64,000 bases of DNA from Crocinitomicaceae bacterium (GTDB lineage Bacteria > Bacteroidota > Bacteroidia > Flavobacteriales_D > Crocinitomicaceae), in assembly GCA_030727405.1 (NCBI GenBank), contig JANRBR010000035.1:62001-126000 (forward strand). Reading direction: 5' to 3'. The notes under the pieces are model-generated. The model saw only the letters and a program-made list of their open reading frames with translations, was not told the DNA's origin and ran no database searches. Made by a program: the position numbers and the translations under genes. Every line of letters starts with the position of its first letter. Positions within the stretch are counted from its first letter, which is position 1. Of the stretch, positions 49,446 through 52,676 are shown in pieces.

Positions 49446-49453
49446 TAATTTTG
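49446..49453 (+). promoter_or_regulatory. -7 promoter box (TAATTTTG), candidate for the sigma/anti-sigma operon
   Basis: An exact TAnnTTTG match about 93 bases upstream of the sigma gene. A second, weaker match (CAATTTTG) touches the sigma start itself. TGTAAC at 49500-49505 resembles the AAC-type -35 of ECF promoters and could allow self-activation. Confidence 0.4.
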
Positions 49454-49546
49454 TAAGTTTACTCGTTTAGAAGTTGTTGCTTTTTTTTTAAAAAGAGGCT
49501 GTAACTTTTAACAAGTTCAATTTGTTTTAACTGTAATACTGCAATT

Positions 49547-50035
49547 TTGACTAGTGCCGAATACAATCATTCTGTGGAGCATATTAGCGATTCGTTGTTT
49601 CGCTATGCGGTTCATTTTCTGAAGGACTCAGAAGATGCACAGGACGTAGTTCAGGACGCATTTGAAAAATTGTGGTTGAATAGAGAAAAAGTAGAGAAGG
49701 ACAAAGTGAAGTCATGGCTTTTTACCTGTGTGCACAATGCAATGTTGAATCAAGTACACCGAAAAAAAACGCAACAAATTCACTTAGATTCATTGGAGAA
49801 AACAGCGCATCAAAAGCCTGATCAATCATATGAATCGAAACAAGTAATTGACCTCATAGTTGCTTCCTTGCCTCCTTTACAAAAAAGCATTCTCTTATTA
49901 CGCGATTTGGAAGGTTATACCTACGAGGAGATTGGTGATTTACTCGCTATTCCACCAGCTCAGGTGAAAGTGTACCTCTTCAGAGCGCGTTTAAAAATTA
50001 AAAAACAGTTAAAAGGAATTTTTGAACTTGCCTAA
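49547..50035 (+). CDS. ECF RNA polymerase sigma factor (Das-like partner of a dual-membrane anti-sigma)
   Basis: A 162-residue sigma-70-type ECF factor. Region 2 is about 10-75 (LFRYAVHFLKDSEDAQDVVQ, then FEKLWLNREKV and SWLFTCVHNAMLNQ). Region 4 is about 105-158 (LPPLQKSILLLRDLEGYTYE, then IGDLLAIPPAQVKVYLFRAR). The start is TTG 49547, giving MTSAEYN; this MTxxEYN opening recurs in Bacteroidota ECF factors. A GTG nine codons later is possible. Its stop overlaps the start of the next gene by one base (TAATG), so it is coupled to its presumed anti-sigma factor. Target promoters are unknown. Confidence 0.92.
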   Translation: MTSAEYNHSVEHISDSLFRYAVHFLKDSEDAQDVVQDAFEKLWLNREKVEKDKVKSWLFTCVHNAMLNQVHRKKTQQIHLDSLEKTAHQKPDQSYESKQVIDLIVASLPPLQKSILLLRDLEGYTYEEIGDLLAIPPAQVKVYLFRARLKIKKQLKGIFELA

Positions 50036-51708
50036 TGCAACCGACACACGAAAACATTGATCGCTGGTTATTTGATTACACGGAAGGAAACCTATCCGCT
50101 GAGCAAGAACAACTATTAGAGCAATTCTTAATGAATCATCCAGATCTTGAAATGGACTTGGACGCATGGGAGGTATCGAAAGTAGATGTTGCTCCTATTC
50201 CATTTAATAACAAATCCGCTCTGTATAAAAAACGCTCTTACAAACATGCTTTCGCTTTAATAGGTCTTCTTCTTCTTTTTGTATCCGGTCTGGCCTATTA
50301 TCAAACCTCGCGCAACATAAATGAAACTGCTCATGTTACGCGAAAAGGAAAAGATAAAACGACCGCCTCTACAGGAAATGCATCCAAAAAATCGAATGCA
50401 TCTCTTCAAAAGGCAGTTCTAGTAGTTTCTTCAAGGAAATCAGAAGGTGGAAACGCCAAGATATCTGCCAAGTTTGACCAACCACAAGCATCGAACGCTC
50501 CAAGAACGAACATGAACTTGACATCGGCGCCGAAGAACAAATTAGATCAATTCACCTCATCAATCATTTCGGAAAAGAGCACAACAGACGCTAATCTAAG
50601 GGATGACTTAAAAAACTTTGACACAGAAATCGATTTGACACCAATCGCATTGCGTTCACTAAAAGGAATGACCTTACCGAGATTCAATGGTAGCATTTAC
50701 ATCGAAGAATTGAACGAATCAGTCGACTTAGATGCAAAAAAAGTGAGCCTAGGCAACTTTGATTTGGTGCGTAAACTCGATCGTTTACTATCTAAGGATA
50801 TCGGATTGACCAACAACCAGTCTTATGATTACACCTTGCCAGGACAAAGCAATCTCGATGTAAATTTTAGTTCAGTTGGAACAACCTCCCAAACAAGATT
50901 TCAAGCAGTTAGCTCATTGAGAGCGCCAGAAAATCCTGCGCAAATGAAGCTGAACAATCAACTTTCCTTGGACGGATATTCCAGGGGAATGCGAGCAGGA
51001 TTTGGACTTCAAGCAAACTACGATGATTTTGGAGATGGCCTAATTAAAGACGTCAATGTTGCCCTAATATTCTCGCCAAAAATCGCTTTAAGTCGAAAAA
51101 TATCATTGGAGCCCGCCATTCGTTTTAACATGGGAACAATGACCTTAAATGAACAAAAGCTTTCTTCTGCAGGAAAAGTGGAATACAACACTGGACAAGT
51201 CAATGATTTTCAATTCGATCCTAACCTAGCGATTGGACGAACATTGTGGTACCGAGATTTGGATCTAGGAATGACCATTCACACACCACTTTTCTTTTTA
51301 AGTGGACAAGTGTCAAACCTGTTCAAGCATAATGAAAATATATACTCTAATGATGGTTCAACCCTTGCTGCCTCAAGAAACATACATTTAATTGCCGGCA
51401 CCCAGTATATTTCAAGAAATGAAAAGTTGATTTTTTCGCCTTATGCATTGTACCAACAAACGAAATACCTAACGCAACTTTTCGGAGGCTTTACCTTTAA
51501 AGCAGGCAAAGCCCAAATTGGGATGACCTACGGAAGCCTCTCTAGTGCGAATGTTTCCATAGGTTATATTGGAACGCATTTCGCGTTGATTGGTCAATCC
51601 GGATACGGAACCTTAGTAAGTACACAAAATAGAACCTTTACACATCAAATAACCTTACGCATTCATTCATCTGTGAGTAAAAAAGCACGCAGATACATAA
51701 GCCTATAA
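50035..51708 (+). CDS. Dual-membrane-spanning anti-sigma factor: anti-sigma N-terminus, one TM helix, linker, PorP/SprF-like outer-membrane barrel
   Basis: A 557-residue protein with an unusual layout. Residues 1-70 are acidic and helical (NIDRWLFDYTEGNLSAEQEQ, then FLMNHPDLEMDLDAWE), the pattern of short ECF anti-sigma domains. There is no signal peptide; one transmembrane helix spans about 71-89 (HAFALIGLLLLFVSGLAYY), placing the N-terminus in the cytoplasm. Residues 90-300 are polar and low-complexity (Ser/Lys/Asn-rich). Residues about 305-557 are beta-strand-rich and align by pattern with the PorP/SprF barrel of the next gene (MRAGFGLQANYDDFGDGLI; DLGMTIHTPLFFLSGQVSNL). One protein would thus span both membranes, as in the Dma family of Bacteroides thetaiotaomicron. 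Barrel homology and topology are inferred from reading the sequence. Confidence 0.8.
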   Translation: MQPTHENIDRWLFDYTEGNLSAEQEQLLEQFLMNHPDLEMDLDAWEVSKVDVAPIPFNNKSALYKKRSYKHAFALIGLLLLFVSGLAYYQTSRNINETAHVTRKGKDKTTASTGNASKKSNASLQKAVLVVSSRKSEGGNAKISAKFDQPQASNAPRTNMNLTSAPKNKLDQFTSSIISEKSTTDANLRDDLKNFDTEIDLTPIALRSLKGMTLPRFNGSIYIEELNESVDLDAKKVSLGNFDLVRKLDRLLSKDIGLTNNQSYDYTLPGQSNLDVNFSSVGTTSQTRFQAVSSLRAPENPAQMKLNNQLSLDGYSRGMRAGFGLQANYDDFGDGLIKDVNVALIFSPKIALSRKISLEPAIRFNMGTMTLNEQKLSSAGKVEYNTGQVNDFQFDPNLAIGRTLWYRDLDLGMTIHTPLFFLSGQVSNLFKHNENIYSNDGSTLAASRNIHLIAGTQYISRNEKLIFSPYALYQQTKYLTQLFGGFTFKAGKAQIGMTYGSLSSANVSIGYIGTHFALIGQSGYGTLVSTQNRTFTHQITLRIHSSVSKKARRYISL

Positions 51709-51713
51709 CTACT

Positions 51714-52676
51714 ATGAATTTTAAAAACCTCATCCTACTTGGTCTTTTATATGTGAGTTTTCAATCCACTGCTCAAGACCCCACGTTTACACAATTCTAT
51801 TCCAATCCTATTTATTTGAATCCAGCTCTTGCAGGATCCAGTGGCTGTCCAAGAATTGCCTTAAACTATCGAAACCAATGGCCACAATTGTCTGGTAATT
51901 TTGTCACCTACGCTGCTGCCTATGACTCATATGCAAAAAATGTACAAGGTGGAGTCGGACTCATGGCTGTGCACGATCAACAGGGACAAGGAACCATTCA
52001 AACTACAACGATCGCAGGAACTTACTCGTATTACCTCAAAGTAAATCGAAAGTTCCGTGTCATGGTTGGCTTACAAGCGGCCTATTCTCAAAAATTTCTT
52101 GACTGGAGTAAATTAACCTTTGGAGATATGATTGATCCAAGAAGAGGATTTATATATCAAACAGGCGACGTTCCAAGAGGAAATGGCAAACATGGTTTTT
52201 TCGATGTATCGGCTGGTTTGGTCGGATTTTCTAAGAACTTTTATTTTGGCCTGGCTGCACACCACTTAAATACACCAGATGAATCAATGATCTTGGGCCA
52301 ATCAAGCCTTCCAATGAGAATAACTGGACACATGGGTGCAACCATTCGAGTTGGACAACGCGGCCGAATGTCTAGTTCGACTTCCATTATGCCGAATGTG
52401 ATTTACCAATACCAAAATGGATTTCAGCAATTGAATTTAGGCGCCTACCTAAAATACGAAGCCTTTACGATTGGTGCATGGTACCGAAACCGGGATGCAT
52501 TCATTCTGAGCCTTGGTTTAACAACCGAAAAATTCAGAATTGGATACAGCTATGACTTAACCGTTTCACAACTGGGCGGTGTCACAGGTGGTTCCCACGA
52601 GATTTCATTAGGATTCAATTTAAAATGCAAGAATCAAATTAGGGACTTTAGACGTATTTCTTGTCCGTCTTTCTAA
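51714..52676 (+). CDS. Type IX secretion PorP/SprF family outer-membrane protein
   Basis: A 320-residue PorP/SprF-type barrel. The signal peptide ends at about residue 20 (FQSTAQ), followed by the family opening DPTFTQFYSNPIYLNPALAG. VGLMAVHDQQGQGTIQ, FRVMVGLQAAYSQKFLDWSK and FGDMIDPRRGFIYQ are typical. Such proteins work with surface adhesins or other type IX cargo and often sit beside the cargo gene; none is adjacent here. It begins 5 bases after the anti-sigma/barrel gene and belongs to the same operon. Confidence 0.92.
   Translation: MNFKNLILLGLLYVSFQSTAQDPTFTQFYSNPIYLNPALAGSSGCPRIALNYRNQWPQLSGNFVTYAAAYDSYAKNVQGGVGLMAVHDQQGQGTIQTTTIAGTYSYYLKVNRKFRVMVGLQAAYSQKFLDWSKLTFGDMIDPRRGFIYQTGDVPRGNGKHGFFDVSAGLVGFSKNFYFGLAAHHLNTPDESMILGQSSLPMRITGHMGATIRVGQRGRMSSSTSIMPNVIYQYQNGFQQLNLGAYLKYEAFTIGAWYRNRDAFILSLGLTTEKFRIGYSYDLTVSQLGGVTGGSHEISLGFNLKCKNQIRDFRRISCPSF

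Follow-up and report, generated by a model that had tools for sequence, protein, structure and literature searches.

A three-gene locus in a 64,000-nucleotide stretch of DNA from a Crocinitomicaceae bacterium (contig JANRBR010000035.1, positions 62,001 to 126,000; the window; source assembly 2,233,639 bases) encodes an extracytoplasmic function (ECF) sigma factor, a 557-amino-acid (aa) protein with the architecture of a dual-membrane-spanning anti-sigma factor (Dma), and a PorP/SprF-type carrier of the type IX secretion system (T9SS). By its sequence, the C-terminal barrel of the 557-aa protein is itself derived from PorP/SprF. It is considered probable, at about 0.6, that this protein, the sigma factor and the PorP, which is a second copy next to one encoded beside gldJ, form a self-regulated sensor matching the supply of gliding/T9SS carriers to need. 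This reading builds on features taken from sequence, namely the order of the domains, the descent of the barrel from PorP, the conservation of the triplet, a shared promoter-like motif and the relation between the PorP copies.

Related loci were collected by scanning 84,980 species genomes with the peptide pattern W[LFM]FDxxEGNL, which returned 100 stretches, of which 94 were confirmed and the best 80 kept. This set rests on a single N-terminal peptide pattern and overlaps in part with a set of related genomes searched separately. In all 80 loci, the sigma gene immediately precedes dma, with an overlap of 4 bases in 66, an overlap of 1 base in 12 and a gap of 6 or 18 bases in two. Since 80 of 80 related loci carry the pair, its occurrence is not due to chance. 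In the window, the sigma open reading frame (ORF; 49547-50035) and the dma ORF (50035-51708) share one base, exactly as given in a preliminary description of the locus, and the former scored 139.7 bits against NF058625 (cut-off 130).

The 557-aa protein was modelled with AlphaFold2 (AF2; 73 rows), which yielded a mean pLDDT of 74.3 and a pTM of 0.57, the relative placement of the domains in the model being uninformative. Three N-terminal helices were predicted (residues 8-17, 22-34 and 36-47), and 14 long strands extended across residues 288-544 with block mean pLDDT values of 84-98 (Table 1). AF2 and hydropathy thus gave the order of a Dma protein within one chain: N-terminal domain, transmembrane (TM) helix, disordered tether and C-terminal barrel. 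This agrees with the preliminary description, which had proposed a Dma-like protein with an acidic helical N-terminus, a single TM helix at about residues 71-89 and no signal peptide; judged from the acidic N-terminus and hydropathy, no N-terminal signal peptide is evident. The disordered linker was likewise recovered, but at about 168 residues (93-260) it is shorter than the roughly 200 residues suggested. One TM stretch starting at residues 45-110 with a mean hydropathy above 1.6 was found in 63 of 73 members, and the remaining 10 showed weaker peaks (1.25-1.57) at residues 68-79.

Table 1. Features of the sigma-Dma-PorP locus (positions in the window).
Feature	Position	Strand	Evidence
Promoter-like motif TGTAACTTT-N13-TTGTT before the sigma gene, ECF type by look	49500..49526	+	Conserved in related loci; exact site in own genome
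ECF sigma factor, 162 aa, TTG start	49547..50035	+	NF058625 over cut-off; Sigma70_r2 and Sigma70_r4_2
Acidic three-helix N-terminal domain (residues 1-47)	50035..50175	+	AF2 helices, block pLDDT 88-96; net charge -11
Single TM helix (residues 70-92)	50242..50310	+	Hydropathy peak 71-89; AF2 helix 70-99
Disordered tether, presumably periplasmic (residues 93-260)	50311..50814	+	pLDDT <50 at 102-165, 167-241, 251-260
14-strand barrel of PorP/SprF origin (residues 262-557), hatch segment at its N-terminal end, no cysteine in the tail	50818..51705	+	PF11751, hhalign, AF2, VIA Z 22.8
PorP/SprF carrier paralog, 320 aa, cysteines at 305 and 317	51714..52676	+	TIGR03519 248.3 bits; 79.7% mature identity to gldJ-linked PorP

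The ancestry of the barrel was traced by sequence profiles. PF11751 matched residues 294-557 with an E-value of 4.4e-12 (45.7-46.6 bits, curated cut-off 22.3), and the barrel was among nine places found with this family in the own genome. When only the barrels of the 73 members were searched, 49 matched at E <=0.001. In a profile-profile alignment (hhalign), residues 261-557 aligned to residues 20-316 of the adjacent PorP with an E-value of 9.3e-25 and a probability of 99.6; therefore, the fusion covers the entire mature PorP, including the hatch segment. The AF2 model of the linked PorP (mean pLDDT 73.6, pTM 0.72) contains 14 strands with lengths matching those of the Dma barrel, in line with the earlier proposal of a beta-rich, PorP/SprF-like C-terminus patterned like the neighbouring protein. 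A C-terminus with no predicted barrel, which the preliminary description had named as a refuting outcome, was not what the model showed. The structure comparison classed the barrel as FadL-like. Chain F of entries 8gl6 and 6h3i, both T9SS structures, which we take to be PorV, gave Z-scores of 22.8 and 22.3, and FadL tied with it at about 20-22. Since these matches tie, the fold alone cannot single out PorP, and it is the sequence that does so. A PorP/SprF chain was missing from the structural match lists, which says little because a sequence search of solved structures gave no PorP relative; the full-length protein likewise found no meaningful relative among solved structures.

The barrel differs from a free carrier, which has a signal peptide followed by a free mature barrel: here a TM helix and a tether come first, and the barrel starts at about residue 262. 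No cysteine occurs in the last 25 residues of any of the 72 complete Dma proteins, so the twin tail cysteines of SprF have no counterpart in them. An origin of the Dma barrel as a recent copy of the neighbouring PorP was rejected: 24 Dma barrels formed one side of a branch with support of 100/99 in a tree in which L054 and L052 have long branches.

The N-terminal domain is also found outside the PorP-barrel family. Eight proteins of other families, i.e., all N-terminal-only matches outside the family in the searched related genomes, combine it with different, shorter C-termini, and a sigma gene precedes all eight. These proteins comprise 332-441 aa with their strongest hydrophobic stretch at residues 129-212 and look like ordinary single-span sigma partners. 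That all eight follow a sigma gene supports, without proving, that the N-terminal domain is the part holding the sigma factor, and residues 1-47 are presumed to bind it. The zinc-finger family zf-HC2 (PF13490) was matched weakly by four of 26 Dma N-termini (best E 0.04, below cut-off) and by two of the eight proteins above, the sigma partners L058 and L062 (E 0.00063 and 0.0082, both below cut-off). These two belong to a group of sigma partners (L055-L058, L060 and L062) in which the acidic N-terminal domain is repeated two to three times before the TM stretch and the C-terminal end is short and basic. A second sigma gene of the own genome (contig C2, L156:2732-4362) scored 119.6 bits for NF058625, below the cut-off, and is accompanied by a 349-aa single-span partner; about 5 kb downstream of it lie porP, gldL and a gldM-like ORF that runs off the contig (L156:9477-14839).

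Conservation extends to the third gene. A PorP ORF, in some cases cut by a contig end, lies directly behind the dma gene in 66 of the 80 loci. Among the other 14, the dma gene is cut by a contig end in eight, at most 170 bases are left behind it in five, and one is truly without PorP (L146, contig as G058:C35). The best named relatives of the locus come from Crocinitomicaceae and Flavobacteriales metagenome-assembled genomes, and the triplet is also present in an isolate, Crocinitomix catalasitica ATCC 23190 (L131). When 395 genomes from the class were searched with a profile (E 1e-40), 15 genomes, including the own one, were recovered from four of 196 genera. Eight of the 15 belong to the distant family f24, from which four loci were inspected: three have the full triplet, and the fourth has the sigma-Dma pair and only a PorP fragment. 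The tails of the f24 PorPs contain cysteines but do not end in CPSF, and the upstream motif is present in L272 and L273. Elsewhere in the order, 23 genomes from other families were covered, and five of them (G038, G045, G046, G055 and G058) have both ends in one chain.

The promoter-like motif was counted in 77 of the 80 loci, the upstream region being too short in three. The form TGTAAC-N16-TTGT occurs before the sigma gene in 76 of 77 regions, compared with a shuffled mean of 0.055, and the strict form TGTAACTTT-N13-TTGTT in 63. A second copy with one mismatch lies upstream in the window (49452-49478), within a stretch conserved among close relatives. Exact sites number three in the own genome (reversed-pattern control: none) and 60 in the own genome and 60 relatives together. 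The reversed pattern gave ten sites in the latter set, so some exact sites are due to chance. Of the 60, all except one in G022 were inspected, and two without an ORF within 300 bases were retained in the count. Sigma genes follow 25 of these 59 sites, orthologs of a 132-aa lipoprotein seven (judged by eye; five clear, two likely), orthologs of a 297-aa barrel-like protein four, and PorP as identified by hidden Markov model three (G058, G055 and G046). The 297-aa protein aligns to PorP (hhalign E 9.6e-7) and has no Pfam match. At the remaining 20 sites, 13 genes appear by eye to encode exported proteins. One gene behind an exact site scored 20.8 bits for OMP_b-brl (PF13505), below cut-off. Three small lipoprotein genes stand behind an exact site at L246:5695-6891 and, conserved in close relatives, as orthologs in L247, L249 and L251.

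Two genomes connect the motif with carriers and cargo. In G055, one exact site precedes one of the 13 exported-looking proteins, a 131-aa lipoprotein with a type-B C-terminal domain (CTD; TIGR04131, 42.2 bits) and another precedes a PorP. In G058, the motif lies 33 bases before an unlinked PorP (TIGR03519, 250.2 bits), which is followed by a 1164-aa ORF whose type-B CTD score of 32.7 bits is below the cut-off of 35. Since the Dma of G058 has no linked PorP and the motif precedes a PorP elsewhere in that genome, broken linkage still leaves the motif with PorP. The sigma-Dma-PorP operon is probably self-regulated via this motif.

The linked PorP has a close relative in its own genome. The gene for this nearest paralog is immediately followed by gldJ (TIGR03524, 465 bits), and porU and porV point away from it. 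This duplication, the conserved triplet, the motif before the sigma gene and its unlinked sites go beyond the preliminary description. Of 28 loci taken to hold such a gldJ-side PorP, all have gldJ behind it and none has the motif in front; 20 of these loci were picked by PorP identity alone and eight after gldJ had been seen, and L178 and a second copy not beside gldJ (L185) were excluded. The two PorP copies were compared in 24 genomes, omitting G026 (L289), where the linked copy is on a broken contig, and taking the unlinked PorP under the motif as the 'linked' copy of G058. Both copies have cysteines at the 16th and 4th residues from the end in 24 of 24 genomes. The same cysteines occur in all 61 complete PorP ORFs of the linked kind in the 80 loci (a few being extra copies), whereas the own genome's six other PorPs lack them. 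In nine of 24 genomes, the linked copy is closest to the gldJ-side copy of the same genome, with identities reaching 100% in G012 and 99.7% in G005 and G055; the gldJ-side copy of G009 is itself closer to that of G005. These nearest pairs point to repeated copying or conversion between the motif-less and the motif-bearing copy. In the clade of the window, the two copies are older paralogs. Five genomes of the same genus lack a detected Dma. A single PorP copy is present in four of these (G001, G018, G020 and G032, two of which are less than 82% complete), and the fifth, G010, has a second, partial one. The own genome holds 27 places with a type-B CTD, 23 of them over cut-off.

The divergent arrangement of porV-porU and PorP-gldJ is conserved across families of the order (L150:4011-12988, L176, L177, L179-L181 and L183), and the PorP in it ends in CPSF. 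GldJ lengths of 884 and 908 aa in two congeneric genomes (L150:10334-12988 and L180:9696-12422) compare with 578-674 aa in six loci of other families. A different conserved trio, in L170-L174 and L184, consists of a 1683-1858-aa ORF with a type-B CTD-like end by eye, a protein of 517-528 aa and a PorP whose tail reads CAKF.

Dma1 and Dma2 of Bacteroides thetaiotaomicron pair with the ECF21 sigma factors Das1 and Das2 (PMC13088901). In the parts of that report drawn on here, they are described as an N-terminal domain, a TM helix, a long disordered tether and a C-terminal barrel. The gene dma2 lies in a three-gene operon and its loss raises das2, which is among the most raised genes, and bt_1557; what the barrels sense is left open, with glycan sensing proposed for Dma2. 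The present locus shares with this system a sigma gene followed by an anti-sigma-type protein of the same domain order, the likeness being one of architecture. It differs from the system as published in those parts by its PorP/SprF-derived barrel, the PorP/SprF carrier as third gene and a sigma factor that scores against NF058625. PorP/SprF proteins are described as carriers of type-B T9SS substrates (PMC12618676, PMC9143113), and their genes commonly lie directly behind substrate genes (PMC12618676); here, as far as those accounts go, the anti-sigma gene takes the place of the cargo gene before porP. According to PMC12635249, a disulfide joins the twin cysteines in the tail of SprF to GldK; gliding requires this bond, whereas export does not. 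Set against carriers as portrayed in these sources, the Dma barrel belongs to the same family but is fused to a cytoplasmic and TM part and has a tail without cysteine, whereas the linked PorP has two conserved tail cysteines. In Porphyromonas gingivalis, PorXY-SigP is described as likewise placing T9SS-related genes under an ECF sigma factor, but with a two-component system upstream of it; in the present locus, the role of sensor would fall to the anti-sigma protein. A search by title and abstract found no prior report of an anti-sigma factor with a PorP/SprF barrel, subscription literature being mostly outside its reach.

In FecA-FecR-FecI signalling, an outer-membrane (OM) barrel also informs an ECF sigma factor, but barrel and anti-sigma factor are separate proteins that meet in the periplasm, whereas barrel and sigma partner form one chain here. 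For the supply sensor, we infer that the N-terminus would hold the sigma factor at the inner membrane and the tethered barrel would sample the carrier state at the OM, i.e., type-B cargo left unserved, too few carriers or a translocon that has stalled. A change in this state may pull or cut the tether and free the sigma factor, which would raise its own operon and thereby provide more carrier, together with further carriers, cargo, lipoproteins and barrels. The overall result would be a supply-and-demand loop for carriers of surface adhesins. A tentative and rather unlikely elaboration is that the tethered barrel is a mock carrier docking at the T9SS translocon: excess cargo would load it, strain on or exposure of the tether would free the sigma factor, and a replacement gldJ-type carrier would be made. 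The tie to the inner membrane and the missing tail cysteines would keep such a barrel from leaving the translocon. If this applies, one chain from the cell surface to RNA polymerase would report the secretion load through force or occupancy.

Several observations weigh against a carrier-supply sensor. In the search of the N-terminus that had been proposed as a check, no Pfam anti-sigma family matched over cut-off, and the N-terminus alone found nothing among solved structures (best E 0.42). The corresponding check of the C-terminus succeeded with PF11751 and failed with TIGR03519, which matched neither the barrel fragment nor the full-length protein at E-values up to 10; the barrel was therefore classed as a PorP-derived domain rather than a PorP protein. 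With the full-length protein, Pfam did not return PorP and NCBIfam returned no match; since PF11751 was found with the fragment, the long linker is taken to mask it. At E 0.001, 24 of 73 barrels miss PF11751. Mean column identity is 46% for the Dma barrels (alignment A5) versus 71% for the linked PorPs (A3), near-copies being retained in A5 as in A2; since the barrels are the less conserved, cargo binding may have been lost. The motif was not found in L274 and L275, two of the four f24 loci examined. A search allowing two mismatches was not enriched (66 sites versus 135 in the control) and was swamped by chance, so that only exact sites were used. Seven of the 20 remaining sites show nothing clear, and what follows the two other exact sites of the own genome are lipoproteins and a distantly PorP-like barrel that no Pfam family matches. 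Regarding the carrier, L178 in G041 is a PorP of the linked kind without adjacent gldJ, two PorP copies but no Dma were detected in G049, and in G019 and G027 a Dma is present while no PorP copy reached E 1e-50. Finally, the linked PorP has a spacing of 11 residues between its tail cysteines, unlike the Cys-Xaa-Cys of SprF. The linked PorP was therefore not kept as a plain SprF, and its attachment to the gliding track is no more than a guess.

The main rival is a general sensor of OM assembly, in which the PorP-type barrel would serve as a test piece whose failed insertion leads to cleavage and release of the sigma factor, with carriers as incidental targets of an envelope-stress response. The exact motif sites before lipoproteins and other OM-like proteins fit this possible but less probable explanation, as does the faster divergence of the barrel compared with the linked PorP. 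However, the recurrent partner is one PorP subfamily, nearest to the gldJ-side copy of the same genome in nine of 24 cases, and PorP genes recur at unlinked sites (3/59), which is more than a general assembly sensor would need. An improbable alternative is an environmental receptor, whose barrel would bind an external ligand and for which the linked PorP would be a routine effector. Poor conservation of the barrel would suit changing ligands, sugar genes lie upstream of the locus in the window, and the second gene behind the site on C3 of the own genome has sub-cut-off similarity to mutarotases, including N-acetylneuraminate epimerase; the proposal for Dma2, as given in the part of PMC13088901 drawn on, points the same way. 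Against this, PorP genes recur behind the motif, and among the genes directly behind the sites none was recognised as serving sugar uptake, most of them being judged by eye only. That the protein is not an anti-sigma factor at all, but a membrane-tied carrier fusion with a sigma gene as accidental neighbour, would agree with an N-terminus lacking a clear family match. It is highly improbable in view of the 1- or 4-base overlap with the sigma gene in 78 of 80 loci and of the N-terminal relatives that follow a sigma gene despite quite different C-termini (8/8).

Under the carrier-supply reading, the Dma barrel comes from a family with a known job, and the operon, the motif sites and the twin carriers name a candidate signal, the status of the T9SS/gliding carriers. 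Since the isolate C. catalasitica ATCC 23190 has the triplet, the sensing question is testable there by gene removals and a reporter. A single chain that appears to reach from the cell interior to the OM could give the cell a direct reading of its surface machinery.

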